Positions 1,722 to 27,220 of a stretch of 45,654 nt of DNA are shown here, one piece after another. A program made the translations under genes and the position numbers. The first letter of the stretch is position 1, and every line of letters starts with the position of its first letter. Location of the stretch: IMG/VR virus record IMGVR_UViG_3300020005_000011, positions 1-45,654 of that record; one strand, 5' to 3'. The notes under the pieces were generated by a model. It searched no databases and was not told the DNA's origin. It saw nothing but the letters and a program-made list of their open reading frames with translations. Source of the stretch: a virus.

Positions 1722-2120
1722 ATGGCTTGGAATAATAACAGAGCTACTAGAGGAAGAAAAACTCTTAAACAAGAATTGCAAGTAGTCCAATACATGTCAG
1801 AGCTTCAAGGACCAACTTTTGATTATATAAAAAAATGTCTAGAAAAAGGAAACAAAACAGATAAAAAGTGGGCAGTCGAACAGATGATAAAACTTTATGG
1901 AAAAGCAATACCTCAAGAAATTTTTTCTAACAGTGATAATCCGTTAGTTGTGCAAGTAGTTCAAGTGAGCAAAGAAGTTGCTGATAAATATAGCATTCAA
2001 AATACACAAGAAGATAAATCTTCAGACGAAGATAAATCTTCAGACGATTTTCAAGAAATATCAGACAATGCCACTACATCTAGCACAATCGAAAATAGTC
2101 CAGGACAACCATCGGTTTAG
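1722..2120 (+). CDS. Putative terminase small subunit, 132 aa
   Basis: I call this from position: it lies directly upstream of and overlaps terL by 53 nt. The sequence (MAWNNNRATRGRKTLKQEL) begins with a basic region, continues with helices including a KKWAVEQMIKLYGKAIP segment typical of small terminase N-terminal domains, and ends in an acidic Ser/Asp-rich tail with a repeated SSDEDKSSDD element. ATG 1722 is preferred over an ATG 30 nt upstream because the earlier one lies before the hairpin at 1694-1707. A TerS role in DNA recognition during packaging is inferred. Confidence 0.55.
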   Translation: MAWNNNRATRGRKTLKQELQVVQYMSELQGPTFDYIKKCLEKGNKTDKKWAVEQMIKLYGKAIPQEIFSNSDNPLVVQVVQVSKEVADKYSIQNTQEDKSSDEDKSSDDFQEISDNATTSSTIENSPGQPSV

Positions 2121-3324
2121 AATTTTAGTATGCGGAAGAAAGTTTGGAAAGACTACTCTAGCTAGTGAAGAGATTATGGGATGTGCTATTGCAGGAAAAG
2201 ACAGAAGAATTTTATACATATCTCCCACATTAGATGATTCAAGGCGTTTGATGTGGGATAGATTGAAGAATAAATTAGGAAGTGCTATATTTAAAAGCAA
2301 TGATTCAAGATTAGAGTTAATAGTAAAAACACAAGACAATGGAAAGAGCAGAATATTTTTAGGAAGCTGGGAAAAGGTCCAAGATTATCGAGGAGATGAA
2401 TATGACTTGATAATTCCTGACGAAGCACAGGACTACAGGAATTTCTGGCTAGGCTGGCATGAAGCACTTCGTCCAACTCTTACACCACGACAAGGACAAG
2501 CCTTGTTCATGGGTACACCTAAAGGATTCAATCACTTCTACGATCTGTATAATTTTCAAGACATAGACAATGATTATAAAAGTTTTCATTTTACATCATA
2601 TGACAATCCCTTTCTTCCTAACAGTGAAATTGAAAAAGCAAAACAAGAGTTGAATGAAGACAGATTTGCTCAAGAGTATTTAGCAGATTTCAGAAAAACT
2701 CAAGGCTTAGTTTATAAAATATTTGACAGGCAAAAGCATACATATGACAGACTGGAGATTAAACCGACTGAAACAATTGCTGGAATCGACTTCGGTTTTA
2801 CTAACCCATGCGCAGTCCTTACTATTCAACGAGATGGTGACAATAACTTCTACGTTGAAGAAGAATGGTACAAAACAGGAAAAACAGATTCACAAATAGC
2901 AGAGTATGTAGCAAGCAAAAACTTTAATAAAGTTTATCCAGACCCTGAATCTCCTAGTGCTATTAAAGAATTAGAAAAGAAAAAAATCAATGTCAGAGAT
3001 GTGATTAAGAATAAAGATTCAGTTAAGAATGGAATAACTAAAGTAACTGAATTGTTCAAAGCAAATAGATTAAAGATTAACAAGAACTGCATTAATTTAA
3101 TTTTCGAACTTGAAACTTATTCATATCCAGACAAGCAAGACTTCAAGAATGAATATGAAAATCCAATTAAAGAAGATGATCATGCAGTAGATGCATTAAG
3201 ATATGCATTGATGATGCAGTCAGACAATAAAAGAGAAGCATTTCAATTCATACCTAGCCAGATGAATAGAAACCCTAACTACATAATTGAGCATAAATAT
3301 GCTAAGCAATATATACCAAGATGA
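2068..3324 (+). CDS. terL: Terminase large subunit (packaging ATPase/nuclease), 418 aa
   Basis: The packaging motor is recognised by its ATPase motifs: Walker A CGRKFGKTT at residues 22-30 and Walker B LIIPDEAQ at 114-121, followed by a coupling-like MGTPKG segment. The C-terminal RNase H-like nuclease has GIDFGFTNP (first acidic residue, about 240) and DHAVDALRYA near the end. ATG 2068 gives the standard short lead-in to Walker A; the longer upstream extension would be read within the small-subunit tail. It overlaps the upstream gene by 53 nt and the downstream gene by 4 nt. Length fits compact TerL proteins. Confidence 0.93.
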   Translation: MPLHLAQSKIVQDNHRFRILVCGRKFGKTTLASEEIMGCAIAGKDRRILYISPTLDDSRRLMWDRLKNKLGSAIFKSNDSRLELIVKTQDNGKSRIFLGSWEKVQDYRGDEYDLIIPDEAQDYRNFWLGWHEALRPTLTPRQGQALFMGTPKGFNHFYDLYNFQDIDNDYKSFHFTSYDNPFLPNSEIEKAKQELNEDRFAQEYLADFRKTQGLVYKIFDRQKHTYDRLEIKPTETIAGIDFGFTNPCAVLTIQRDGDNNFYVEEEWYKTGKTDSQIAEYVASKNFNKVYPDPESPSAIKELEKKKINVRDVIKNKDSVKNGITKVTELFKANRLKINKNCINLIFELETYSYPDKQDFKNEYENPIKEDDHAVDALRYALMMQSDNKREAFQFIPSQMNRNPNYIIEHKYAKQYIPR

Positions 3325-3740
3325 CTAAACAAGAAGCATTTAATTTATATCAGAGTATTTCTACTAACTTGTCTAATTTGACAGGAAGCAAATTTGCATA
3401 TGGGATATCGAGGAATATAAATATATTAAAAGCTGAAATAGAAGCACTGCAAAAAGCAGGACTAGACTATGAAACAAAAAGACTTGAATTAGCAGCTAAA
3501 TATTCAAAGAAAGATTTAGACGGACAGCCTGTTCTTATCAACAATCAATTTCAATTAGAAGACTCTGTCGGATTTGTCAATTCTTTAGAAAAATTAAAGT
3601 TAGAGAATAAAGAATATTTTGACCTATTAGCACAAGAAAGCGACTTTAAGCCATATAAGATTAAAGCAGAAGATTTACCTGATAATATTACTGTCAATCA
3701 GACTAATATGATTAGCTCTTTATTAAGTGAAACGGAGTAA
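3321..3740 (+). CDS. Hypothetical phage protein (DUF1617-like), 139 aa
   Basis: The start overlaps terL by an ATGA-type junction. The segment SKFAYGISRNINILKAEIEAL (residues about 23-43) gives an amphipathic helix with the KFAYxxxRN pattern seen in small phage proteins of the DUF1617 type. That family match is from memory and tentative. The rest is helical with charged residues and no catalytic motif. Its place between terminase and portal suggests a morphogenesis or host-factor role. Confidence 0.65.
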   Translation: MTKQEAFNLYQSISTNLSNLTGSKFAYGISRNINILKAEIEALQKAGLDYETKRLELAAKYSKKDLDGQPVLINNQFQLEDSVGFVNSLEKLKLENKEYFDLLAQESDFKPYKIKAEDLPDNITVNQTNMISSLLSETE

Positions 3741-3748
3741 AACTCCTG

Positions 3749-4291
3749 ATGAATAAAAGCGTCTGCATAGGAATTGTAACTAATGGTTTAGTTCATGTTG
3801 AGACAATGTTCTCAATCATACAGGCTATTAAGTCTTTGACAATTCCATCAAGCATGGTAATAATTACAGGATGCTATGTAGACAGAAACAGGAATGAGTT
3901 AGTAGAAAAGGCAATACAGACAGGTACAACTCATTTGATGATGATTGACACAGATATGGTCTTTGAAAAAGAAGCGATAAATATACTTCTTTCACATGAC
4001 AAAGACATTGTTGGTGCTAACTACAACAAAAGGCAATTTCCTATAACAAGAATAGTCAAAGAAGACATTAAGGATATAGCAAAAGTAGAATTTGTTCCAG
4101 CTGGTTTTGTTCTTCTTAATTTAGATATTTTTAAAACTATTCCTTCTCCTTGGTTTAAAATAGAGTATAATAAAGATAATTCAATTATTGACGATGACAA
4201 GTATTTCTCAAGATTAGCAAAACAATATAACATTGATACATGGTGTGACCCTAAAATTGTAATTAAGCATATAGGACAGTTCTTATTCTAA
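3749..4291 (+). CDS. GT-A glycosyltransferase-like protein, 180 aa
   Basis: A short Rossmann-like nucleotide-sugar fold is suggested by VCIGIVTNG at the N-terminus, then a helix, then THLMMIDTDMVF (about residues 61-72) containing a DTD motif, the DxD metal and nucleotide-sugar site of GT-A enzymes. KDIVGANYNKRQ follows, where family members have conserved acceptor residues, and DDDKYFSRLA may be the catalytic acidic region. At 180 aa it is shorter than typical GT2 enzymes. It lies inside the packaging module between terminase and portal, an odd place for a sugar transferase. It could glycosylate virion protein, or add a further sugar to DNA. Confidence 0.7.
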   Translation: MNKSVCIGIVTNGLVHVETMFSIIQAIKSLTIPSSMVIITGCYVDRNRNELVEKAIQTGTTHLMMIDTDMVFEKEAINILLSHDKDIVGANYNKRQFPITRIVKEDIKDIAKVEFVPAGFVLLNLDIFKTIPSPWFKIEYNKDNSIIDDDKYFSRLAKQYNIDTWCDPKIVIKHIGQFLF

Positions 4292-4292
4292 A

Positions 4293-6368
4293 ATGTCTAT
4301 TTTAAAAGTTCAAAAGAATATTGACGGTAAAATCAAGTCAGCAAATGAATGGAAGATTGACAATTCAAAGCTAAGTTTAGACAATGAATATAGACAAACT
4401 GTCACTCCAATTGAATACACAAAAGACAAAGATGAAATAAAGCTCAGACAAAGCATTTTGAATAAATTTGCTTTAGGCTACATGACAATGTACACTCCAC
4501 GTATTGAATTTTCTGACCTCAATGTCATTGACAGAATGCAAGTAGACCAAATGAGCTTCAACACTTACCAATCTAACAACGGCATAGGAAGTGAAGGAGA
4601 TGAACTCAACAACTGGAAAAGCAGAGCGATGAAACCTGTTGTCAGAAACAAATGCATATCTATTGCAGCACACGCTACAGCAAGACTGATATTCCCAAAG
4701 GTATTTGCATATGACAAAAATTCAGACACTCAAGAAGAAGCAGCAATAGTAATGAGAGACTTGATGGAATGGGCTGGTGATCAGGCTAATTACGAAAATA
4801 CTTCACTTCATGCTGTGATTACTTCTCTTACAGATCCTGCTAGCATTGTTTATAAAGAATATGGTGAAGTTTACAGAACAGTCAAAAGAGAAAAGAACGG
4901 ACAGAAATACAAAGAAGAACAAATCCTTGATGAAACACTGTCAGGATTTAAAGACACAATGGTTCCGGTAGATGAATTGTTTATAGAAAACTTTTTTGAA
5001 TCTGACATACAGAAGCAAGGCTGGCTGATTTGGAGAAGAGTCATTTCATATTCGTTAGCTGAAGCTAAATATAGTCAAAAATATAAAGACAAGTTTAAAT
5101 ATGTCAAACCAGGAATGCAAGTTCTTTACAATGATGCAAATGAAAGTTTTTATCAAGTCTATGACCAGAACATGCGACCATATGATGTTGAAGAAGTAGT
5201 GTATTTCAACAGAACTTTAGATTTGAAAATTATTTTAGTTAATGGTGTCATGCTTTGTGATGTAGATAATCCTAATCCTAGAAATGACAAGATGTATCCT
5301 TTTGTCAAATTTGGTTATGAACTTATAAACAACAGATGTTTTTATTACAAGAGTTTAGCTTTCAAGCTTCAGCAAGATGCTAACATCATCAACAGCTTGT
5401 ATCCTATGATTATTGATGGGACTTATCTCAATATTTTTCCTGCAATGGTCTCAACTGGTGGAGAAATTATAGGAAGTGATGTTATTATTCCAGGAGCTGT
5501 GACTACTCTTCAAGACACTAATAGTGACATCAGAGCAATTCAAACGACAACAAGCAGAGGTTTAGAAGTAGGAATGCAGACATTGCTTAAAGTAGATGAG
5601 AGTTTAAACATAACAAGTGCAGATGGACAAACTCCTGGCCAGAATGTCAGCAAAAATCAGACAGCTTATGAAATATCAAGGCTAGAACAGAATGCTGCAA
5701 CAGTTTTAGGCTTGTTTGTTAAAATGATTTCAACTTATGTCAAAGAATATGGAAAATTGACAATGGGAGATATATTGCAGTATCTGACAATCATAGATGC
5801 TGATAAAATTACAGACAAACCTGATTTAGTTTATAAGACATTTTTAGTCCAAGACCATACAAATCCAGGAAAACACAAGAAAATTATGTTTGATGGAAAT
5901 ATGAATGACGAAGCTACTACAGAAAAGGATTTGCTCAATCAAAGCTATGATCTTTTAGAAGAGCAAGGAGGTCCTGACAGTGATATGACACTTTACAAAG
6001 CAAATCCAACAATGTTCAGAGATTTAAAATTCATCAATGTCATTGATGCTGATGTAATGAATCCAAGAAGTGATGAGCTTGAGCGTGCCTTGGACTTGGA
6101 AACATATGATCGAGCTGTGAATAATCCTGCAGCAAATCAAGAGCAAGTTTACAGATTCTTGCTAGGAACAAATCCCACTACAAAAAAAGACCCTGACAAA
6201 TATACAATGTCACAGCAGGCTAGTTCTAATCCAATGGACATGATTGGACAATTAGCACAACAGCAAGGACAAACTCCAATGCCTGGAATGCCAAATGCTG
6301 GAAATAGTCCATTAAATGCAATGTCTGCACAGCCACCTCAGCCTCAGCCAGCAGTAGCAAGGAGATGA
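4293..6368 (+). CDS. Portal protein, 691 aa
   Basis: Position after terminase, length near 700 aa and overall character fit a podoviral-type portal (head-tail connector). The N-terminal half carries repeated aromatic and charged segments such as WKSRAMKPVVRNKC, the middle contains NRCFYYKSLAFKLQQDANI, and the C-terminal part has a long helical YEISRLEQNAATVLGLF region. The end is a flexible Gln/Pro/Met-rich tail. It would form the dodecameric channel for DNA entry and exit. The stop overlaps the start region of the next gene. Confidence 0.8.
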   Translation: MSILKVQKNIDGKIKSANEWKIDNSKLSLDNEYRQTVTPIEYTKDKDEIKLRQSILNKFALGYMTMYTPRIEFSDLNVIDRMQVDQMSFNTYQSNNGIGSEGDELNNWKSRAMKPVVRNKCISIAAHATARLIFPKVFAYDKNSDTQEEAAIVMRDLMEWAGDQANYENTSLHAVITSLTDPASIVYKEYGEVYRTVKREKNGQKYKEEQILDETLSGFKDTMVPVDELFIENFFESDIQKQGWLIWRRVISYSLAEAKYSQKYKDKFKYVKPGMQVLYNDANESFYQVYDQNMRPYDVEEVVYFNRTLDLKIILVNGVMLCDVDNPNPRNDKMYPFVKFGYELINNRCFYYKSLAFKLQQDANIINSLYPMIIDGTYLNIFPAMVSTGGEIIGSDVIIPGAVTTLQDTNSDIRAIQTTTSRGLEVGMQTLLKVDESLNITSADGQTPGQNVSKNQTAYEISRLEQNAATVLGLFVKMISTYVKEYGKLTMGDILQYLTIIDADKITDKPDLVYKTFLVQDHTNPGKHKKIMFDGNMNDEATTEKDLLNQSYDLLEEQGGPDSDMTLYKANPTMFRDLKFINVIDADVMNPRSDELERALDLETYDRAVNNPAANQEQVYRFLLGTNPTTKKDPDKYTMSQQASSNPMDMIGQLAQQQGQTPMPGMPNAGNSPLNAMSAQPPQPQPAVARR

Positions 6369-6370
6369 TG

Positions 6371-6895
6371 ATGGACGCAAGCTTAAACCAAGCAGAATGG
6401 GTCAAATTAAGTCCTTCTTTACGAATTAAATTAGCAGAGATTTTTGAAATACCTAAAACAACAGGAAGCCAAGTTGAGGTAGTAGCAGGACAGACTATTG
6501 TTGTCAGTGATGGACATACTCATAATGATTTGAAAGCAATCACAGTCCAGAAAATGAAAGACTATCTTGCAAAAATAGAGTATGTTGGTCCATTATATGA
6601 TGATTTCTTTCAGCTTTTTGACATAGTAGCTCAAGAGCTTGAAAATAGCTCTAGCAGCGTTTCTAAAAGACAAGCTGATATATCTATCAACTCTGATGTA
6701 AAAAGCGCTCTCGGAGTGACTAGGAAGACTCAGGAAGCCCCTTCGTATCCTGATATGGATGAAGAAGCAATCAAGAAAGACTGGCAAGAAGTAATTGACG
6801 AAATGAAAAGACAATCAATGCAGTTTGGTTTAGATGTAGAATTAAGAAAAATTTTATATAGAAACAGTCCTAAAAAATCATTTCCAAATATTTGA
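6371..6895 (+). CDS. Hypothetical head-module protein, 174 aa
   Basis: Three ATGs occur in tandem at 6365, 6368 and 6371. AGGAG lies immediately before the first, so the third has the best spacing (6 nt) and is chosen. The product (MDASLNQAEWVKLSPSLRIK) has a SDGHTHNDL segment with two histidines, then helical charged regions. I do not recognise it. Position after the portal suggests a head assembly or connector factor. Confidence 0.6.
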   Translation: MDASLNQAEWVKLSPSLRIKLAEIFEIPKTTGSQVEVVAGQTIVVSDGHTHNDLKAITVQKMKDYLAKIEYVGPLYDDFFQLFDIVAQELENSSSSVSKRQADISINSDVKSALGVTRKTQEAPSYPDMDEEAIKKDWQEVIDEMKRQSMQFGLDVELRKILYRNSPKKSFPNI

Positions 6896-6897
6896 AT

Positions 6898-7320
6898 ATG
6901 TTAAAAGATTTTCTTCCTAAAAAAGTCAATCTTACTAAGGAACAGAAGAAAGAGACTAAAAGACAGCAAGTTTTAGCTAAAGAAGTCATTTGGCCGATAT
7001 TAGTCAAGAACAGTAAATCAGTTAAAGACTGCCAGAATAGTTTAAAAAGTTTAGTAGTAGGTCTTGACGCTATATTTCACCAGGATGTACTCAAATACAG
7101 CCAAGGACGAAGTGAAAATCCATTGCATACTTTAAATCTTAAAAGACAAATGGTAGATAAAGGTTATGATTTAGAAAAAGAACTTGTTGAAGCTCTTAAA
7201 GATGAATCAATTACAACAGCCAAAGCACTTATAGATGGAATGGACAAAGAATTGCAAAGGCTATTAGACAAAGAATTAATGTCTAGAAAATTAGATGAAT
7301 TGGAAACAGAATTTTTATAG
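6898..7320 (+). CDS. Hypothetical helical protein, 140 aa
   Basis: Starts MLKDFLPKKVNLTKEQKK and is almost entirely charged helix, with a C-terminal stretch LQRLLDKELMSRKLDELE suggesting a coiled coil. ATG 6898 is preferred over an in-frame TTG at 6892 that overlaps the previous stop. No domain is recognised. It belongs to the portal-to-scaffold block. Confidence 0.6.
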   Translation: MLKDFLPKKVNLTKEQKKETKRQQVLAKEVIWPILVKNSKSVKDCQNSLKSLVVGLDAIFHQDVLKYSQGRSENPLHTLNLKRQMVDKGYDLEKELVEALKDESITTAKALIDGMDKELQRLLDKELMSRKLDELETEFL

Positions 7321-7324
7321 ACTC

Positions 7325-7633
7325 ATGGTCAAGACAAGTTTAATTAGAGCTCCTATTATAGATTTAGAAAATGTATTGACAGAAAAGAATGGCAAACTGT
7401 TTCTTAATAAAATTCTTATTCCTGATAAGTTAAAAGACCAGCTAAAGAGTGAAGCAAATTTATATCGCAATACTAAATTATGGGAAATTATTACAAACAC
7501 ATTAGAGAATCAAGCTTATGAATCCGGATGGACTAAATCAACTACACTACAAGATTTATTAAATGCAAAGAGCATTTGTTTTACTATTTCAGTTCAGAAG
7601 AATATAATAGAATTGATTGAAAGGGCAAAGTAA
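7325..7633 (+). CDS. Hypothetical protein, 102 aa
   Basis: ATG 7325 follows the previous stop by a few bases; an upstream TTG inside the preceding gene is less likely. The product (MVKTSLIRAPIIDLENVL) looks alpha/beta with LWEIITNTLENQAYESGW in the middle. No family is recognised. It is the last gene before the long structured leader of the capsid operon. Confidence 0.55.
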   Translation: MVKTSLIRAPIIDLENVLTEKNGKLFLNKILIPDKLKDQLKSEANLYRNTKLWEIITNTLENQAYESGWTKSTTLQDLLNAKSICFTISVQKNIIELIERAK

Positions 7634-9062: not shown

Positions 9063-9080
9063 ATTAACAATTAAAAATCT

Positions 9081-9110
9081 ATGTTTACAGAAGCACAAAA
9101 TAAACAAGTT
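9081..9110 (+). CDS. Major capsid protein, exon 1 (10 codons)
   Basis: ATG 9081 encodes MFTEAQNKQV and is then stopped by TGA at 9111-9113. Joining base 9110 to 9979 removes the stop and restores one frame: MFTEAQNKQV followed by FAIVQTELDD. The splice point is ambiguous by one T, but an intron ending in G (9978) fits group I rules. Without splicing only a 10-residue peptide would be made. The full protein is 311 aa. Confidence 0.85.
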
Positions 9111-9978
9111 TGAGTAAGTTGTACAAATGTAAATATTGATGATATGATTATGCTATGGATACATATCATAAACTTCCAATAAAAATACGGGAAGAAATCA
9201 TCAAAAAGCACTTTGAAAAAGGAATATCACAAGCTCAATTAGCTAAAGATTATAATGTAAGTCGTCAAATAATTTGGAGATATTGCCATAAAAAAGGAAT
9301 TTCTCCATTCTTTAAAGGTTATAAGATTGATAATGAAACAATTATTGATTTGTATAATCAAAAGAAGTCTATTCTTCAAATCTATAAGATTACAGGTTTG
9401 GGAAGAAGACAAATAGATAAACGACTGAAATTAGCTGGAATAGAAAAAAGACAATTGTCTAGAAGAAAAGAATTTGAGCAAATTTCAAATTATAGGATTA
9501 AAATGAGAATTTGGAAACTCAAAGTTAAAGAAGCTGATAATATGAAATGTATGATGTGTGGGAATACTAAACACCTTCATGTCAATCATATAATTCCAGT
9601 AAGAGATATAAGTAATTCTAATGATTTATTTGACATAAATAATGGAATTACTTTATGTAAAAAATGTCATCTGAAAATACATTTTAAAGAGTATGAGTTT
9701 GTAGATAGATTCAAACAACTTATATCTAAGCGATGTTTTGTGGATAAATAATCGGGTTAACTCAGGGAAAACCTTATAATAAGCACTAATTATAAGACAA
9801 TCCTGATCCAAGCGATTTAGGGATAAATCGAAGGAGCAACGACTAGAAGCATACTGCCAGATCGGCTATGAAGCTTCCACGAACGCCCGACATTCCAATA
9901 TAGAATGAAGATATAGTCTAACCTTACAAGTGATTGTAAGATGTAAAAGATAAAGAACTTTTACGATAATAAATATTG
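9111..9978 (+). ncRNA. Group I intron in the major capsid gene (868 nt)
   Basis: The part after the endonuclease ORF (9752-9978) has group I core signatures: CTCAGGGAAAACCTT, GACAATCCTGATCCAAGC (P3-P4 region), AACGACTAGAAG (P7 5' side) and GAAGATATAGTCTAACC (P7 3' side). AACGACTA with GATATAGTCT are the same P7 elements found in T4 td-type (IA) introns. The intron ends in G at 9978, and removing it fuses the two capsid reading frames. The HNH ORF lies before the whole core, so it occupies a 5' peripheral loop (P1 or P2). I could not draw an unbroken P1 helix with certainty. Confidence 0.9.
9155..9751 (+). CDS. Intron-encoded HNH homing endonuclease, 198 aa
   Basis: The N-terminal half has helix-turn-helix units (ISQAQLAKDYNVSRQIIWRY and a second near ILQIYKITGLGRRQID) that would contact the target. 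The C-terminal HNH domain runs from about residue 130: CMMCG, HLHVNHIIPV, NNGITLCKKCHLKIH, with complete CxxC, H, N and CxxCH residues. It lies inside the group I intron, so its expected job is cutting intronless capsid genes and driving intron homing. ATG 9155 is the first in-frame start. Confidence 0.9.
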   Translation: MDTYHKLPIKIREEIIKKHFEKGISQAQLAKDYNVSRQIIWRYCHKKGISPFFKGYKIDNETIIDLYNQKKSILQIYKITGLGRRQIDKRLKLAGIEKRQLSRRKEFEQISNYRIKMRIWKLKVKEADNMKCMMCGNTKHLHVNHIIPVRDISNSNDLFDINNGITLCKKCHLKIHFKEYEFVDRFKQLISKRCFVDK

Positions 9979-10884
9979 TTCGCTATTGTGCAGACTGAGT
10001 TAGATGATGTCTTTTTTCAGACATTTGAATATGACTCTTCAAGCCCTGGAATTGCAACAGCTCAATCAGGAGACTTGTTCAAAGTTGTACCTACTACTCA
10101 TGCTGCATATATTGGCGAAGTAAATAAAGGAACAGGACTTTGGAAGCTTACAGGTGAAACACAGACAATTTCACAGTCTACTCCTTCAGTTCGTAATAAG
10201 TATACGATCTATGTAAATGACTTTACAGATTCAATTGCTCTGTCAAAAGATTTGTTCGATGACAACATGCATGGTGTTTGGTCAGAAGACGTCAAACAAT
10301 TTGCATTAATGGCTCGAATAACTCAAGATGACCAAGCATTTGCTCTGTTCAGAAATGCATTCACTACTACTTTAACAGCAGATGGTGTTGCATTCTTTTC
10401 GGCAAGTCATGTCTTGATCGGAGGCGGAACTACTTCTAATCTCATCACTGGAGCTTTGTCTGATACAACTCTGAATAATGGAATTGTCTCACTCAGAGAG
10501 CAGAAAAACCAAGCTGGTGTCATTCTTGGTGGTGTTCCCACAATATTATTGGTCCCTTCGAAATTGTTCAAATATGCATTACAGCTGACTGATTCAGCAC
10601 TTGTAGCTGACAGTGCAAATAATGCAATCAACGTCTATCGGTCAAGTTATGGATTCAAGGTCATGTCAAGTCCATACTTAGGTGCAGCAGCAGGCGGAAG
10701 TGATACTGCTTGGTTTTTGCTGACTCCTAATCATTCAGTGTCAAGACTTGTCAGACAAGGAGTTCAGACAGCTTTGACCCCATGGCAGTACAGCAATAAC
10801 AGGACATACAACTATCAAGGAAATTTTCGTGAAAGTGTATTTGTTCCTGATTATTCTGGTGCAGTAGCAAGCTTGGGCACTTAA
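9979..10884 (+). CDS. Major capsid protein, exon 2 (301 codons)
   Basis: This encodes residues 11-311 of the spliced capsid protein. Features fit the HK97-fold family near Mu gpT: DGVAFFSASH near the middle (compare the family's FSxxH element), then SLREQKNQAGVILGGVPTIL, VPSKLFKYAL and a C-terminal VFVPDYSGAV. The frame is open upstream only to a TTG at 9976 inside the intron end, and no ATG or ribosome site is present, which supports splicing rather than independent translation. Position after scaffold and decoration genes agrees. Confidence 0.88.
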   Translation, partial: FAIVQTELDDVFFQTFEYDSSSPGIATAQSGDLFKVVPTTHAAYIGEVNKGTGLWKLTGETQTISQSTPSVRNKYTIYVNDFTDSIALSKDLFDDNMHGVWSEDVKQFALMARITQDDQAFALFRNAFTTTLTADGVAFFSASHVLIGGGTTSNLITGALSDTTLNNGIVSLREQKNQAGVILGGVPTILLVPSKLFKYALQLTDSALVADSANNAINVYRSSYGFKVMSSPYLGAAAGGSDTAWFLLTPNHSVSRLVRQGVQTALTPWQYSNNRTYNYQGNFRESVFVPDYSGAVASLGT

Positions 10885-10901: not shown

Positions 10902-11231
10902 ATGATAGGAACAGGATTTTTTACCACACTGACTAGTCATACTCAAATTGCTTTTACCGACAACAATGGATTAGCAATGCTAGTAAGTTGTGATACCACT
11001 CCTGAAACTCAAGCTGATACTTATGCCAAAGGATGCATTCTTATTAGAACAGATAATGCTACAGTCTACACCAATACAGGAACAAGTGCAAGTCCAACTT
11101 GGACAGTCAATGGAACTGGTGGTGTAGGAGCAACAGGAGCTGCAGGAGCAACAGGGGCTGCAGGTGCTACAGGAGCTTCAGGTGCTACAGGTGCAGCCGG
11201 AGCAACAGGAGCTACAGGACCAGGAGTTTAG
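10902..11231 (+). CDS. Collagen-like head or fibre protein, 109 aa
   Basis: A beta-type N-terminal domain (about 75 residues, ending SASPTWTVNGTGG) is followed by collagen-type Gly-X-Thr triplets (GATGAAGATG and similar) to the stop. Short Gly-Ala-Thr triplet runs in phages form trimeric stalks. It directly follows the capsid gene, so a head fibre or decoration is likely. The tail of two hairpins overlapping and after the stop is listed separately. Confidence 0.65.
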   Translation: MIGTGFFTTLTSHTQIAFTDNNGLAMLVSCDTTPETQADTYAKGCILIRTDNATVYTNTGTSASPTWTVNGTGGVGATGAAGATGAAGATGASGATGAAGATGATGPGV

Positions 11232-21763: not shown

Positions 21764-24700
21764 ATGGACAAGAAAGCTAAAAAATTAATAAAGAAAGCTG
21801 CTTTTCAGCAAGATCCTATTGGAGCTAATAATTCAGAGCTTCAAGAGACCAATGACCATTTGGGAGACATTAAGGATATGCTTTCAAGCGACAAAGTAAA
21901 ACAAATCAGCAATGCTGGAGAATTTGTTACTAATTTCTTGTCGAGCATTAAGGGTGATAAGGGCGATATAGGGGCTACAGGACCAATAGGTAAGGATTCT
22001 ACTGTCCCTGGTCCTCAAGGCCCTCCAGGGAGTGATTCTAACCTTCCAGGGCCTATCGGGCCAGCAGGTGTTGACGGATATACTCCTATTAAAGACATTG
22101 ACTATTTTGACGGTGAAAAAGGTGAAAAGGGAGATAAAGGTGATAAAGGAGATACTGGTTTAGCTGGAATAAATCCAGACCCTAAAGATGTAATTGGTTT
22201 AATGAAAGTTTTGCCTGAAAAGGACAAACTTGACATTTCACATTTACGAAATAGTGCTCAATTGTCTAGTGCTGTAGGAAAATTAGGAAAAATCAATTTT
22301 GACGACTTACGTTGGCATGGAGGAGGAATCAGCAATATTACAGCAGGTGAAAATATTAATATTACAGGTACAGGTTCAACTTCTGACCCTTTATTGATTG
22401 AAGGAAATGAAAGCACTGTAGGTTATCAAGCATTTTATAATGGTGGACCAAGCGGATCGAGTTATTCTATTGGACAAGCCTTTTCAGTAGATGGAGTAGA
22501 CTGGATTAGAGACGGAAATAATCCTTTAATCATTCCAGTAGCAGGGACATGGGAAGCTAATGTCGTCAAGGACCCGTGGGTGGTTGTTGTTAATAATATA
22601 ATTTATCTTTATTACGCAGGCTGGCGTTCTTCGACCAATAGATTCCAAATCGGTTTAGCCATTTCTAAAGACTATGGTCTGACATATACTAAATATTCAA
22701 CTAACCCGATAATTGCCAATGGCGGAGTGGGAACAGTAGATGAACGTAGAGCTATGTTCCCGACAGTTGTCTATGAAGCTGATGAAACAAATGTAAATAA
22801 AAAGTGGAAGATGTGGTATGCAGCAAGAGATGGAAATGATGTTGAAACTATTGCTTATGCATATTCAGCAGATGGTATAACATGGACTAAATTTGGTCGA
22901 GTCTTGAATGTTGGAAGTACAGGACAATTTGATGATACCGTTCTTCAAACTGGTGATGTTAAAAAGATTAATGGAACATATTATCTATTCTATGGTGCAG
23001 CAACTTCAGTTGCAGGAAGATATAAGTTTTCAGGTGGTTTAGCTACATTTACAGATTCTGAAGGAACTTATACAAAACAAGGTCAAATACTGACTAGTTT
23101 AGTTGATCAAGCACAAAATTTGACTGCTGATACTTTAACAGGGTCTAAAGTTGTGACTGTCGCTGATACTTCTGTTTTTGAAACTAATGAGTATGTTTTA
23201 ATTGGAGACACTAATAGCCAGCCATTATTGACTCGAATTGCTTCAATAGACTCAGCAACTCAAATAACTTTAAGAGATGCAGTAGCTAGTGATATAACAA
23301 CAGCTTTATCAGGAGCATTAAGAAGTGTATATCAATGGAGCATAACACCTAGAACAGTCTTTCGTGAGAATGGTCATTGGACAATGGCAGCAACTGTCTA
23401 CCAAGTGTTTTCAGATATGGGTTACTTACGAGAATATTCAGGTTGGGCATATAACTACAATACTTTACCGACAGGAGATTGGGTAATTGATGTAAGTCGA
23501 GGAATAGCATTAGAAACAGTACCAGCTACTTGGGAGACTAATTCAATTGAAAATTTTTCAATTATTCCACTTCGATTTGCAACTGCAGCACATTTGTTTG
23601 GTGAAAGTGGGGCTGGAGCAACAGGAGCCACTGGACCTGCTGGAGCAACTGGATCAAGCAGTGTTGGAGATTCAGTATCTTTTACAGTTTCTCAAACAGC
23701 TCATGGTTTTGTAGTAGGTGATGTCATCAAAGAATCAGGAACGGCCAATACATATGCAAAAGCTCAAGCTGATTCTGCTGCTAATGCAGAAGTAGTAGGA
23801 ATAGTCACTACAGTTACTAATGTTAATAGTTTTGCTTATACAACTCATGGCATAGTTATAGCAGGAGTTCCTGCTGTTGCTGCTGGTACAGTTTTATTTC
23901 TTTCTCCATCAAGTGCAGGAGCTTTAACTTCTACTGAGCCAACAAGTGTTGGACAAGTTAGTATACCTTTAGCTGTAGTTTTAGAAAATTCAGTAAGGAT
24001 GTTGTTTAACAATAAGAGGGGAGAAGTATTATCAACTCCTGCAATAGGTGCAACTGGATCGACAGGAGCTACTGGTCTTACTGGCTCTACTGGACCTATT
24101 GGAGCAACTGGACCAGTAGGTGCTACAGGTGCGACTGGTCCTGCTGGAGCTACTGGTGGAAGTGGTGCAACTGGTTCTGTTGCTAATATATTGCCACTTA
24201 ATATAACAAATGCTAATACTGTTGACCAATATAATGCGGCGAACGCCCAGACTTTCAGCATTTATAACAGGCGGGCTGATGCCAGCAATTATGAACGCTT
24301 CTCTCTTTTGTATGATGGCGGCGTTACCATGTATTTGTACACGAATCACAGTGGAGCTGGATATAACAATACCAATATCAGGATACAGGCTGACGGTAGC
24401 GTTAGTTTATATAACAACTCTCAGTCTGGTAGTGATTACAGTGGTATTGTCATTGATGGGAGTGGAGTTTTAATCACGGCCAGACCGACGTTTCCAATTA
24501 CTTTGACTCAAACAGGCGGCAATACCAGCACCAGCGGTACTTACACTGGAATCAGCATGACTCCGCTGTTTGCTCCTACTGCGACTTCCACAATGGTTGC
24601 TCGCGGTTTAGTTGTTAATCCGACTATCAACTACTCGGCAGGGACTCCTGGAGCTGGCTCATATGAAGCTTTAAAAATTTCAGTGATAGAAACTGCTCTC

Positions 24701-27220
24701 CCGACTGGAACAAATTATTTAATCAAGGCAAGCGCTGGGGCAGCAGGTACTACGGATAGATTTTATGTAACAAATAGTGGTGCTAGTTTTCAGACAGGTG
24801 TTTCTACAACACAAATAGACGGCATAGGGGTGACTTCTGCTGATGGCCTTGTCTTACAAAATACAACAGCGGCGGCTTTGGGGGCACAGCAATGGTCGCC
24901 AAGATTACGTTTGTCTGGTTTTGCATGGAATAGCGGGACAAGTGCAAGCCAGGCGGCTGATTGGATTATTGAAAATCAAACCAGTCAAGCTAATCCGATT
25001 TTAAGTAATTTGGTATTTTCTCGTCAGTTGGTTGGTGCTGGCTATGCGGCTGAACTTACCTTATCAACTGGTTCAGCTGATTTTACCAGGAGAATATCAA
25101 GCGGAGGAAATGTTACAGCAGCAGGTCCAAGTGCATTTACTTGGAATACTTCAAACTCGGCTGGATTATATTCGGATAGTGTGGCAAATACTGTTTCTCA
25201 ACGAAATTCAACTAATCCTCAGACTTTTAATGTTTATGAAACTTGGACAGATGCCAGCAATTATGCTCGTTTGGCATTTATAACGGCTGCGGGAAACTAT
25301 ACTATCCAACAGCAGGCGGCAGGAAGTGGTTCTGTAAGGGTTGTGGAGTTTAAAGACCCTCTTGGTAATTCTCTTATTTTCCTTCCTTCAGCCGCGACTA
25401 ACAGTTTAGGGTTTAGTACTTTTTCAGGTGGCTCAACTGCTTTTACTCGTATTGTTGTCGGACCAACTGGCGCAAATGGTGAAACAGCAACAAGCGGAAC
25501 ACATGTTACGTTGAATGTTCGGGATGGAGCACACCCATCGAGCACATCAACATTAGTTCATGTCTCTCTGCAAATCGCTCCGATCATAAATTATACCAAC
25601 GTTACTCCTGGTGCTGGTTCTTATGAGGCATTGAAAATTGCGGTAACCGAAACTGCTTTACCGACAGGAACTAATTATCTTATAAGAGCTTCAGCAGGCG
25701 CAGCAGGAACGACCGATAAGTTTACTGTTGATAACGCTGGGAATATGGTTGTTGGAGCTGGCACATTTGGCGGCAATACTAATGTCTATCTTAGCTCTTC
25801 CGGCATTCAAGCGGGTAATGGGGCGCAGGCTCTTAAATTCGCGGCAGGTTCGGCTGCAGGAGCGATGGATACAATTCTTAGGAGAGCGGCAGCGGCAACC
25901 CTCCAAATGGGCAATGATGTCAACGGAGCTCCTGTCACACAGACGCTCAAAGCCCATGACGGCATTACGGGCACAGACGTTGTTGGCGCTAATTTTACTC
26001 TTGCTTCAGGAAGAGGAACGGGAGCAGGGGCTGTTTCTTCCTTGATTTTTCAGACACCAACAGTTTTAACTACAGGGACAACCGCACAATCGCTTGCAAC
26101 AAGGCTTACTATAACCGAAACGGTAGCTTCATTTACTACAAATGTTGGAATCAATGAAGCAGCACCTGACAATAAACTGCAAGTGACTGCTACGAGTTCA
26201 GGCGCTTTAGTTAATGGGATTAAAATTAAAAATAATGCCACAGCGACTTCCACAGCCGCAGGCCTAGCATTTGCCACTACAACTTCAACTGCTGTATCTT
26301 CTCAAATTCATTCCTTGCGGGATGGCTCTGGCAATAATGATTTAGTATTTTCAAACAATCTAAGTTCTTCTTTGGTTGAGGTTATGAGAATTACTTCGGC
26401 TGGAGCCTTGAAACTGATTTCAGGCGGAGTAATTAATTTCAATAACGGCAATGCGACTTTAACTCATTCGTCAGCTTTAATAACTTCTAATGTAAATATT
26501 GCTGTACCTGACGAAGCGTACGGTTCAAGTTGGAATGGTAGTGTCAATGTTCCGACCAAAAATGCGGTTTACGACAAAATTGAAACTTTAGTTTCCACAC
26601 CTGTTGCTTTAACAGCTTTTTCTATGGAAAATACTGCTCGATATCTGACTACAGTAGTAGCTTTGGCAACAATAACTCAAAGTTCTAATGGTGATGGTAT
26701 TACACTTTCTACGGGAGTCACTCTTTCAGGATCAGCTCAACTAACAGGTAATGCTTATATGTCAGGAGCTGACGTTGCTTTAGGAAGTCCCTTATGGTCA
26801 GCTACAATTACTCTTTCTAATTTTGGCACTGATTCTCAGTCATATGTTGGCATTGGAGCGATAACTACAGCTGGAGCGGGATTGACTTATACTAATAAGC
26901 ATTTTGGCTTTAAATGGGTAAGAGTTTCAAGCGGAACTGTAAATTTAGTGGCCACACAAGCTGATGGGTCAACTGAAACTGTATCAGGAACTTTAACAAC
27001 AGTAACTAATAGTGATCATCTGGAATTGATTATAAAAGTTAACGGAACAAGCAGTGCTGATTATTACTGGAGAAAAAATGGCGGAGCGTTATCATCAGCT
27101 ACTAATCTTGCGGCTAATTTACCTACAGGATTGGCAGAACAATTTTCAGCGTCAGTCAGTAATGCCGGAGTAGCAACAACTTCAGGCTTTACAGTAAGAA
27201 GTGCCAGTTATCAAAGATAA
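21764..27220 (+). CDS. Long mosaic tail fibre with collagen stalks and propeller domain, 1818 aa
   Basis: Order: a helical N-terminus; collagen block 1 (about 63-140, GPQGPPGSD, GEKGEKGDKGDKGD); a five-bladed beta-propeller-like domain (about 220-450) with GH32/43-type repeats such as VKDPWVVVVNNIIYLYYAG and SADGITWTKFG; short collagen runs near 620 and 760-805; two copies of a ~320-residue beta module (from about 815 and 1140); and a C-terminal lectin-like domain after DEAYGSSWNGSVNVPTKNAV. From about 24230 to 26600 the DNA is visibly richer in G+C than the flanks, a sign of module exchange. It is the likely receptor-binding or surface-glycan protein. The propeller's enzymatic activity is uncertain. 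Confidence 0.75.
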   Translation: MDKKAKKLIKKAAFQQDPIGANNSELQETNDHLGDIKDMLSSDKVKQISNAGEFVTNFLSSIKGDKGDIGATGPIGKDSTVPGPQGPPGSDSNLPGPIGPAGVDGYTPIKDIDYFDGEKGEKGDKGDKGDTGLAGINPDPKDVIGLMKVLPEKDKLDISHLRNSAQLSSAVGKLGKINFDDLRWHGGGISNITAGENINITGTGSTSDPLLIEGNESTVGYQAFYNGGPSGSSYSIGQAFSVDGVDWIRDGNNPLIIPVAGTWEANVVKDPWVVVVNNIIYLYYAGWRSSTNRFQIGLAISKDYGLTYTKYSTNPIIANGGVGTVDERRAMFPTVVYEADETNVNKKWKMWYAARDGNDVETIAYAYSADGITWTKFGRVLNVGSTGQFDDTVLQTGDVKKINGTYYLFYGAATSVAGRYKFSGGLATFTDSEGTYTKQGQILTSLVDQAQNLTADTLTGSKVVTVADTSVFETNEYVLIGDTNSQPLLTRIASIDSATQITLRDAVASDITTALSGALRSVYQWSITPRTVFRENGHWTMAATVYQVFSDMGYLREYSGWAYNYNTLPTGDWVIDVSRGIALETVPATWETNSIENFSIIPLRFATAAHLFGESGAGATGATGPAGATGSSSVGDSVSFTVSQTAHGFVVGDVIKESGTANTYAKAQADSAANAEVVGIVTTVTNVNSFAYTTHGIVIAGVPAVAAGTVLFLSPSSAGALTSTEPTSVGQVSIPLAVVLENSVRMLFNNKRGEVLSTPAIGATGSTGATGLTGSTGPIGATGPVGATGATGPAGATGGSGATGSVANILPLNITNANTVDQYNAANAQTFSIYNRRADASNYERFSLLYDGGVTMYLYTNHSGAGYNNTNIRIQADGSVSLYNNSQSGSDYSGIVIDGSGVLITARPTFPITLTQTGGNTSTSGTYTGISMTPLFAPTATSTMVARGLVVNPTINYSAGTPGAGSYEALKISVIETALPTGTNYLIKASAGAAGTTDRFYVTNSGASFQTGVSTTQIDGIGVTSADGLVLQNTTAAALGAQQWSPRLRLSGFAWNSGTSASQAADWIIENQTSQANPILSNLVFSRQLVGAGYAAELTLSTGSADFTRRISSGGNVTAAGPSAFTWNTSNSAGLYSDSVANTVSQRNSTNPQTFNVYETWTDASNYARLAFITAAGNYTIQQQAAGSGSVRVVEFKDPLGNSLIFLPSAATNSLGFSTFSGGSTAFTRIVVGPTGANGETATSGTHVTLNVRDGAHPSSTSTLVHVSLQIAPIINYTNVTPGAGSYEALKIAVTETALPTGTNYLIRASAGAAGTTDKFTVDNAGNMVVGAGTFGGNTNVYLSSSGIQAGNGAQALKFAAGSAAGAMDTILRRAAAATLQMGNDVNGAPVTQTLKAHDGITGTDVVGANFTLASGRGTGAGAVSSLIFQTPTVLTTGTTAQSLATRLTITETVASFTTNVGINEAAPDNKLQVTATSSGALVNGIKIKNNATATSTAAGLAFATTTSTAVSSQIHSLRDGSGNNDLVFSNNLSSSLVEVMRITSAGALKLISGGVINFNNGNATLTHSSALITSNVNIAVPDEAYGSSWNGSVNVPTKNAVYDKIETLVSTPVALTAFSMENTARYLTTVVALATITQSSNGDGITLSTGVTLSGSAQLTGNAYMSGADVALGSPLWSATITLSNFGTDSQSYVGIGAITTAGAGLTYTNKHFGFKWVRVSSGTVNLVATQADGSTETVSGTLTTVTNSDHLELIIKVNGTSSADYYWRKNGGALSSATNLAANLPTGLAEQFSASVSNAGVATTSGFTVRSASYQR
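24207..26100. repeat. Diverged tandem duplication inside the fibre gene
   Basis: Two modules about 0.96-0.97 kb apart share a head (TVDQYNAANAQTFSIYN near 24213; TVSQRNSTNPQTFNVYE near 25190) and a tail (GAGSYEALKISVIETALPTG near 24650; GAGSYEALKIAVTETALPTG near 25610, each followed by TNYLI and ASAGAAGTTD). The copies differ at many bases, so the duplication is old or came in by recombination. Boundaries are approximate. Confidence 0.7.

Follow-up and report, generated by a model that had tools for sequence, protein, structure and literature searches.

The major capsid gene of an environmental phage, whose whole IMG/VR record (IMGVR_UViG_3300020005_000011; 45,654 bases) is the window analyzed here, is very probably interrupted by a mobile group IA intron. 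In this reading, for which our confidence is high and which is drawn from the nucleotide sequence and its homologues, position 9101 is joined to 9979, a guide sequence lies just before P3, and a gene for an HNH endonuclease occupies the P1 loop. The 877-nt intron (9102–9978, + strand) matches RF00028, is preceded by U and terminates in G, with ends fixed by homologues and by the P1 and P10 pairings. The intron core, the junction, the guide and P10 pairing, and the intact reading frame can all be recognized in the window, and empty sites in its relatives. The initial annotation had proposed a capsid gene split by a T4-type group I intron with an HNH gene, very near the capsid start codon. All of this holds, but the split follows codon 7 instead of codon 10.

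The ORF downstream of the intron encodes a Mu gpT-like major capsid protein (PF10124, 1.4e-14; PF25209, 7.8e-12; phrog_371), and relatives of this protein were found in viral contigs at 24 loci in one search and 38 in another. Among them, the intronless genes L002, L003, and L004 are 80, 60, and 59% identical to the capsid of this record. Exon 2 runs from TTC at 9979 to the TAA ending at 10884, whereas exon 1 comprises only seven codons (9081–9101, ATG to AAT, MFTEAQN). The same seven codons, with small variations, open the intronless genes L002, L003, L004, L193–L200, L202, and L204, and the N-terminus reads MFTEAQN-F(A/S)IVQTEL, or nearly so, in L002–L004, L193–L195, L197–L200, and L204. As exon 1 of the window gives MFTEAQN and exon 2 gives FAIVQTEL, the intron starts after T9101 and ends at G9978. 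The L002 DNA across the join, GCACAAAATTTCGCC, equals the joined exons of the window, GCACAAAAT followed by TTCGCT, except for the last base. The expected junction peptide is thus MFTEAQNFAIVQ, not MFTEAQNKQVFAIVQ. As the initial annotation had anticipated, mechanical ORF calling misses exon 1 and places the capsid start at TTG 9976; annotation of the window and of its relatives loses not only exon 1 but also the splice site and the genuine start of the capsid protein.

The covariance-model search that had been proposed as a check confirmed the intron. Of all Rfam families searched against the window, RF00028 (group I intron) was the one found, at 9711–9940 (model positions 1–253) with 78.1 bits and an E value of 2.7e-18, against a gathering score of 50. 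The match contains the group I core, i.e., the P3–P8 and P4–P6 domains and the guanosine site in P7. From the Rfam alignment, the 5′ strand of P3 lies at 9751–9758, the 5′ strand region of P7 (ACGACUAGA) at 9839–9847, and its 3′ strand region (GAAGAUAUAGUCUAA) at 9907–9921; alignment and fold together place the 3′ strand of P3 at 9884–9892, and P9 with a following hairpin folds at 9923–9964. Between the P7 5′ strand and the P3 3′ strand, an insert relative to the Rfam model (9848–9880) folds into stems corresponding to P7.1/P7.2, a mark of group IA, and it is on these stems that the assignment to group IA (IA2) is based. No tRNA was found when looked for.

The splice site was also approached through base pairing, by scanning every U in 9075–9159 as a candidate 5′ splice site against each G in the 72 nt preceding P3. 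The winner by far was U9101 with G9735, which combines an 8-bp P1 with a neighboring 5-bp P10. Exon 1 ends in eight bases (CACAAAAU, 9094–9101) that pair with the internal guide sequence GUUUUGUG (9735–9742), with a U·G pair at the splice site, and AGCGA (9729–9733) pairs with UCGCU of exon 2 (9980–9984), leaving the first base of exon 2 unpaired, as is likewise the case in the related loci L203 and L205. Among 20,000 dinucleotide shuffles, an 8-bp P1 arose in six, and P1 and P10 together in none. The group I rule is therefore kept, as the terminal U9101 of exon 1 pairs with G9735 of the guide and the intron terminates in G9978. Homologue comparison and base pairing, which are mutually independent, lead to one and the same junction. 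Measured from the intron start, the guide is 634 nt in; it precedes P3 by 17 nt and overlaps the C, F, and V codons close to the C-terminal end of the HNH protein. Unconstrained folding recovers P1 with pair probabilities of 0.75–0.99 when most of the ORF is removed and of about 0.5 in the full pre-mRNA. It also predicts a further long stem that shuts the ORF loop, part of which pairs UAAGUUGU (9115–9122) with ACAACUUA (9715–9722, within the HNH ORF) at probabilities of 0.9–1.0, uncut pre-mRNA included.

These results bear on three other readings of the locus. The initial annotation had joined the exons as MFTEAQNKQV-FAIVQ, with a ten-codon exon 1, and this join also restores one open frame. 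However, the three extra residues KQV occur in no relative, the seven codons of the intronless genes and the guide pairing both point elsewhere, and no matching guide or P1/P10 exists for a site after T9110, compared with 8 and 5 bp for the site after T9101. The KQV codons and the TGA that follows them are intron sequence, and we regard the ten-codon exon as scarcely credible. One may also suppose that the intron is a dead insertion that is never spliced, the capsid being translated from TTG 9976, which is in frame immediately before exon 2. Yet the core clears the score threshold by a wide margin, and the conserved MFTEAQN is still encoded in exon 1; that exon 1, guide, and P10 are still matched is not expected of a dead intron, which makes this reading very improbable.

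The remaining alternative keeps the splice site but changes the architecture. Near the 5′ end of the intron, GUUU (9108–9111) could pair with 9098–9101 to form a 4-bp P1 that likewise ends at U9101, at the position used by related introns. This would put the ORF in a P2 loop, the arrangement of L205 and L208, and leave the distal match as a relic or an alternative guide. In its favor, introns with a guide at the 5′ end group with that of the window in core phylogeny and carry homologous HNH ORFs. Against it, the short pairing is worth −1.9 kcal/mol versus −7.3 for the distal one, its P10 is poor, and its pair probability in unconstrained folding is 0.00. The splice site is identical whichever of the two guides acts as P1, and we consider the proximal guide unlikely in that role.

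With the distal guide as P1, the HNH ORF (9155–9751, 198 aa; PF01844, 3.2e-9; PF02796, 2.6e-8; phrog_8446, 2.4e-22) lies between the 5′ splice site and the guide, and since the guide falls within its last codons, it sits in the P1 loop. Its domains are intact, with a DNA-binding helix-turn-helix (HTH_7) at residues 20–46 and an HNH domain (PF01844) with two CxxC pairs at residues 132–177, as befits an HNH homing endonuclease. The initial annotation had placed the ORF wholly 5′ of the core, in P1 or P2. The first part is nearly right, except that the last codons form the P1 guide strand and the stop codon reaches P3 at its first base; as for the second, guide scan and folding favor the P1 loop over P2. 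With the HNH protein as a query in viral contigs and genome contigs, no relatives were confirmed, and its relatives were found via the capsid gene loci instead; no experimentally studied close homologue was found. Its closest PDB and NCBIfam matches are to the HNH part of IscB, but as they fall far below the NCBIfam cut-off and reflect a shared domain only, we rejected an identity as IscB. Elsewhere in the window, a second, apparently free-standing HNH/NinG-like ORF is located at 726–1169 (PF05766, 1.2e-4, below cut-off), and collagen-like GAT/GPP repeats occur in putative virion proteins (10902–11231 and 21764–27220). Across the insertion site, the joined exons also form a partial palindrome, GCACAA-N10-TTGTGC (9093–9098 and 9986–9991), which is present in L002 too and might be recognized by the HNH protein.

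How the endonuclease gene might be expressed is suggested by the sequence preceding it. There is no obvious Shine-Dalgarno site at its start codon, and a promoter-like element, TGTACA-17-TATGAT with TG before the −10 box (9120–9148; 9 of 12 matches), ends 6 nt before the ATG. By itself this site is not significant (P = 0.16 by score, 0.036 with position). Across 36 intron-embedded endonuclease ORFs, a promoter-like site within 75 nt of the start was found in 22, where shuffles predict 5.3, and a −10 box 5–7 nt before the ATG in nine, where 0.35 would be expected, although many of these ORFs are homologous, so that their effective number is smaller. The −10 spacing is common to four separate ORF lineages, i.e., those of the window, of L208, of an endonuclease VII group, and of an HNH group in psbA-type introns. 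We infer that sigma-70-like promoters inside the introns transcribe these endonuclease genes, some as leaderless mRNAs, and the HNH gene of the window may have its own promoter positioned in this way. Internal promoters are present for T4 intron genes too (PMC2988022). A search upstream of the HNH ORF for an I-TevI-like operator similar to the homing site gave no significant result (P = 0.135).

Taken together, these features suggest how the element could operate. The capsid pre-mRNA would fold so that the guide ahead of P3 pairs with the eight terminal bases of exon 1; guanosine would attack after U9101, and, with P10 aligning the exons, the seven-codon exon 1 would be joined at 9979 to exon 2 to restore the capsid N-terminus. 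The HNH gene would be held in the P1 loop, closed by the second stem, its last codons serving also as guide. Ribosomes starting at exon 1 of unspliced RNA would halt at the TGA at 9111–9113, after three intron codons, and the endonuclease would probably be made from the internal promoter, on RNA that lacks exon 1 and hence cannot splice. The HNH protein would then cut or nick intronless capsid alleles, and repair would copy the intron in. Splicing in the cell, homing, and intron-internal transcription are thus all predicted. If the leaderless-promoter pattern holds, it would be a simple way to stop endonuclease translation from disturbing the splicing of an abundant late mRNA.

In related capsid genes, introns occupy roughly five further sites. 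L203 contains tandem group I introns (about 1763–3000) separated by a 24-nt exon (AGTTCAAACAGAATTGGACGACGT). The first follows MLTEAQNFAV (phase 2; 62.8 bits), and the second follows VQTELDDV, with a P1 of 7 bp and a P10 of 6 bp; its 31.4 bits are below the gathering score (E value 1.8e-6 in a 321-base search). In the VRTEL/VQTEL motif, introns follow GAGT in L205 (71.8 bits) and GAGCT in L208 (79.7 bits). A site near codon 104 is occupied in L005 (4248–4999), L069, L077, L166, L207, and L217; here the endonuclease ORF lies 3′ of the core, and those of L005 and L069 are endonuclease VII-type (PF02945). The U…G rule is kept by five other introns of the family, and in four of these the guide sequence that best fits the junction set by homologues likewise forms a P1/P10 pair. 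The exception is L205, whose weak pairing of 4 + 3 bp is no better than those at other positions. The first intron of L217 was omitted from this tabulation because its 3′ splice site could not be placed at a G. Outside this family, L134 (IMGVR_UViG_3300025087_000044, about 3,000–7,600) has an apparently HK97-type capsid gene, judged by eye, that is interrupted by a run of four or more group I introns, several of them with HNH ORFs, one antisense (5111–5548), and apparent capsid genes of other families in L135, L147, L160, L173, L149, and L159 seem to contain group I introns that share this core type.

In a core tree, which is built from a small alignment and is only indicative, the introns of the window, L205, L217 (first), L208, and L203 (first), all of which occupy N-terminal sites in the capsid gene, group together with support of 0.87–1.0. 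The HNH proteins of L205 (34% identity, 3e-35) and L203 (30%, 8e-27) are full-length homologues of that of the window, and the L208 protein resembles it mainly in the HNH half. In contrast to the distal guide and P1-loop ORF of the window, L203 (first intron), L205, and L208 have their guide 8–11 nt into the intron and the ORF after it, in P2; P2-like stems closing the ORF can be seen by eye in L205 (CAGCAGUUUG/CAAACUGCUG) and L208 (GGAAGUGUUC/GAACACUUCC). We tentatively suggest, as a possibility somewhat short of even, that one HNH-intron lineage moved among neighboring sites in the first ~17 capsid codons, refitting its guide each time; in the window the guide would have passed from the start of the intron into the terminal codons of its own endonuclease gene, turning a P2-loop ORF into a P1-loop one, and the endonuclease would be made from a leaderless mRNA beginning within the intron. 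With several intron sites in one gene and empty sites as well, the capsid family offers a natural series for studying how such an intron adapts its guide to a new site.

In the T4 td intron, which encodes I-TevI, the ORF is located in P6. Like that of the window, the td intron has a T4-type group IA core, an ORF whose 3′ end gives ribozyme bases, and an intron promoter; unlike it, td encodes a GIY-YIG enzyme whose Shine-Dalgarno site is hidden by a hairpin (PMC2988022). Such contribution of ORF ends to the core is also treated in a review (PMC3984707). The DNA polymerase intron of cyanophage Pf-WMP3 (I-PfoP3I) shares subgroup IA2, P7.1/P7.2, the lack of P2, and an HNH ORF overlapping structural elements, but its ORF starts in P6a and its host gene is different (PMC3428280). 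Closest in host gene is mycobacteriophage LittleE, whose major capsid gene is also split by a probable group I intron with a homing endonuclease ORF, and for which splicing was shown by RT-PCR and N-terminal sequencing. That ORF, described as LAGLIDADG-like in the text and as HNH in a legend, is on the opposite strand, and both the capsid and the site differ; a capsid gene intron is mentioned for lactococcal phage Tuc2009 as well (PMC3706429). Myxomycete S1389 nuclear rDNA introns carry a sense-strand endonuclease gene in the P1 loop, but in a eukaryotic rRNA gene, with His-Cys enzymes and a nuclear intron subgroup (PMC8395846). In open-access text, we found no description of a phage intron with an ORF in P1, of a phage group IA intron whose P1 loop holds an HNH gene that itself contains the guide, or of so many intron sites within one family of capsid genes. 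Introns in capsid genes, endonucleases in P1 loops, and overlap between ORF and core each have precedents of their own; what is unusual is the layout found in the window, along with the crowding of introns in one capsid gene family.
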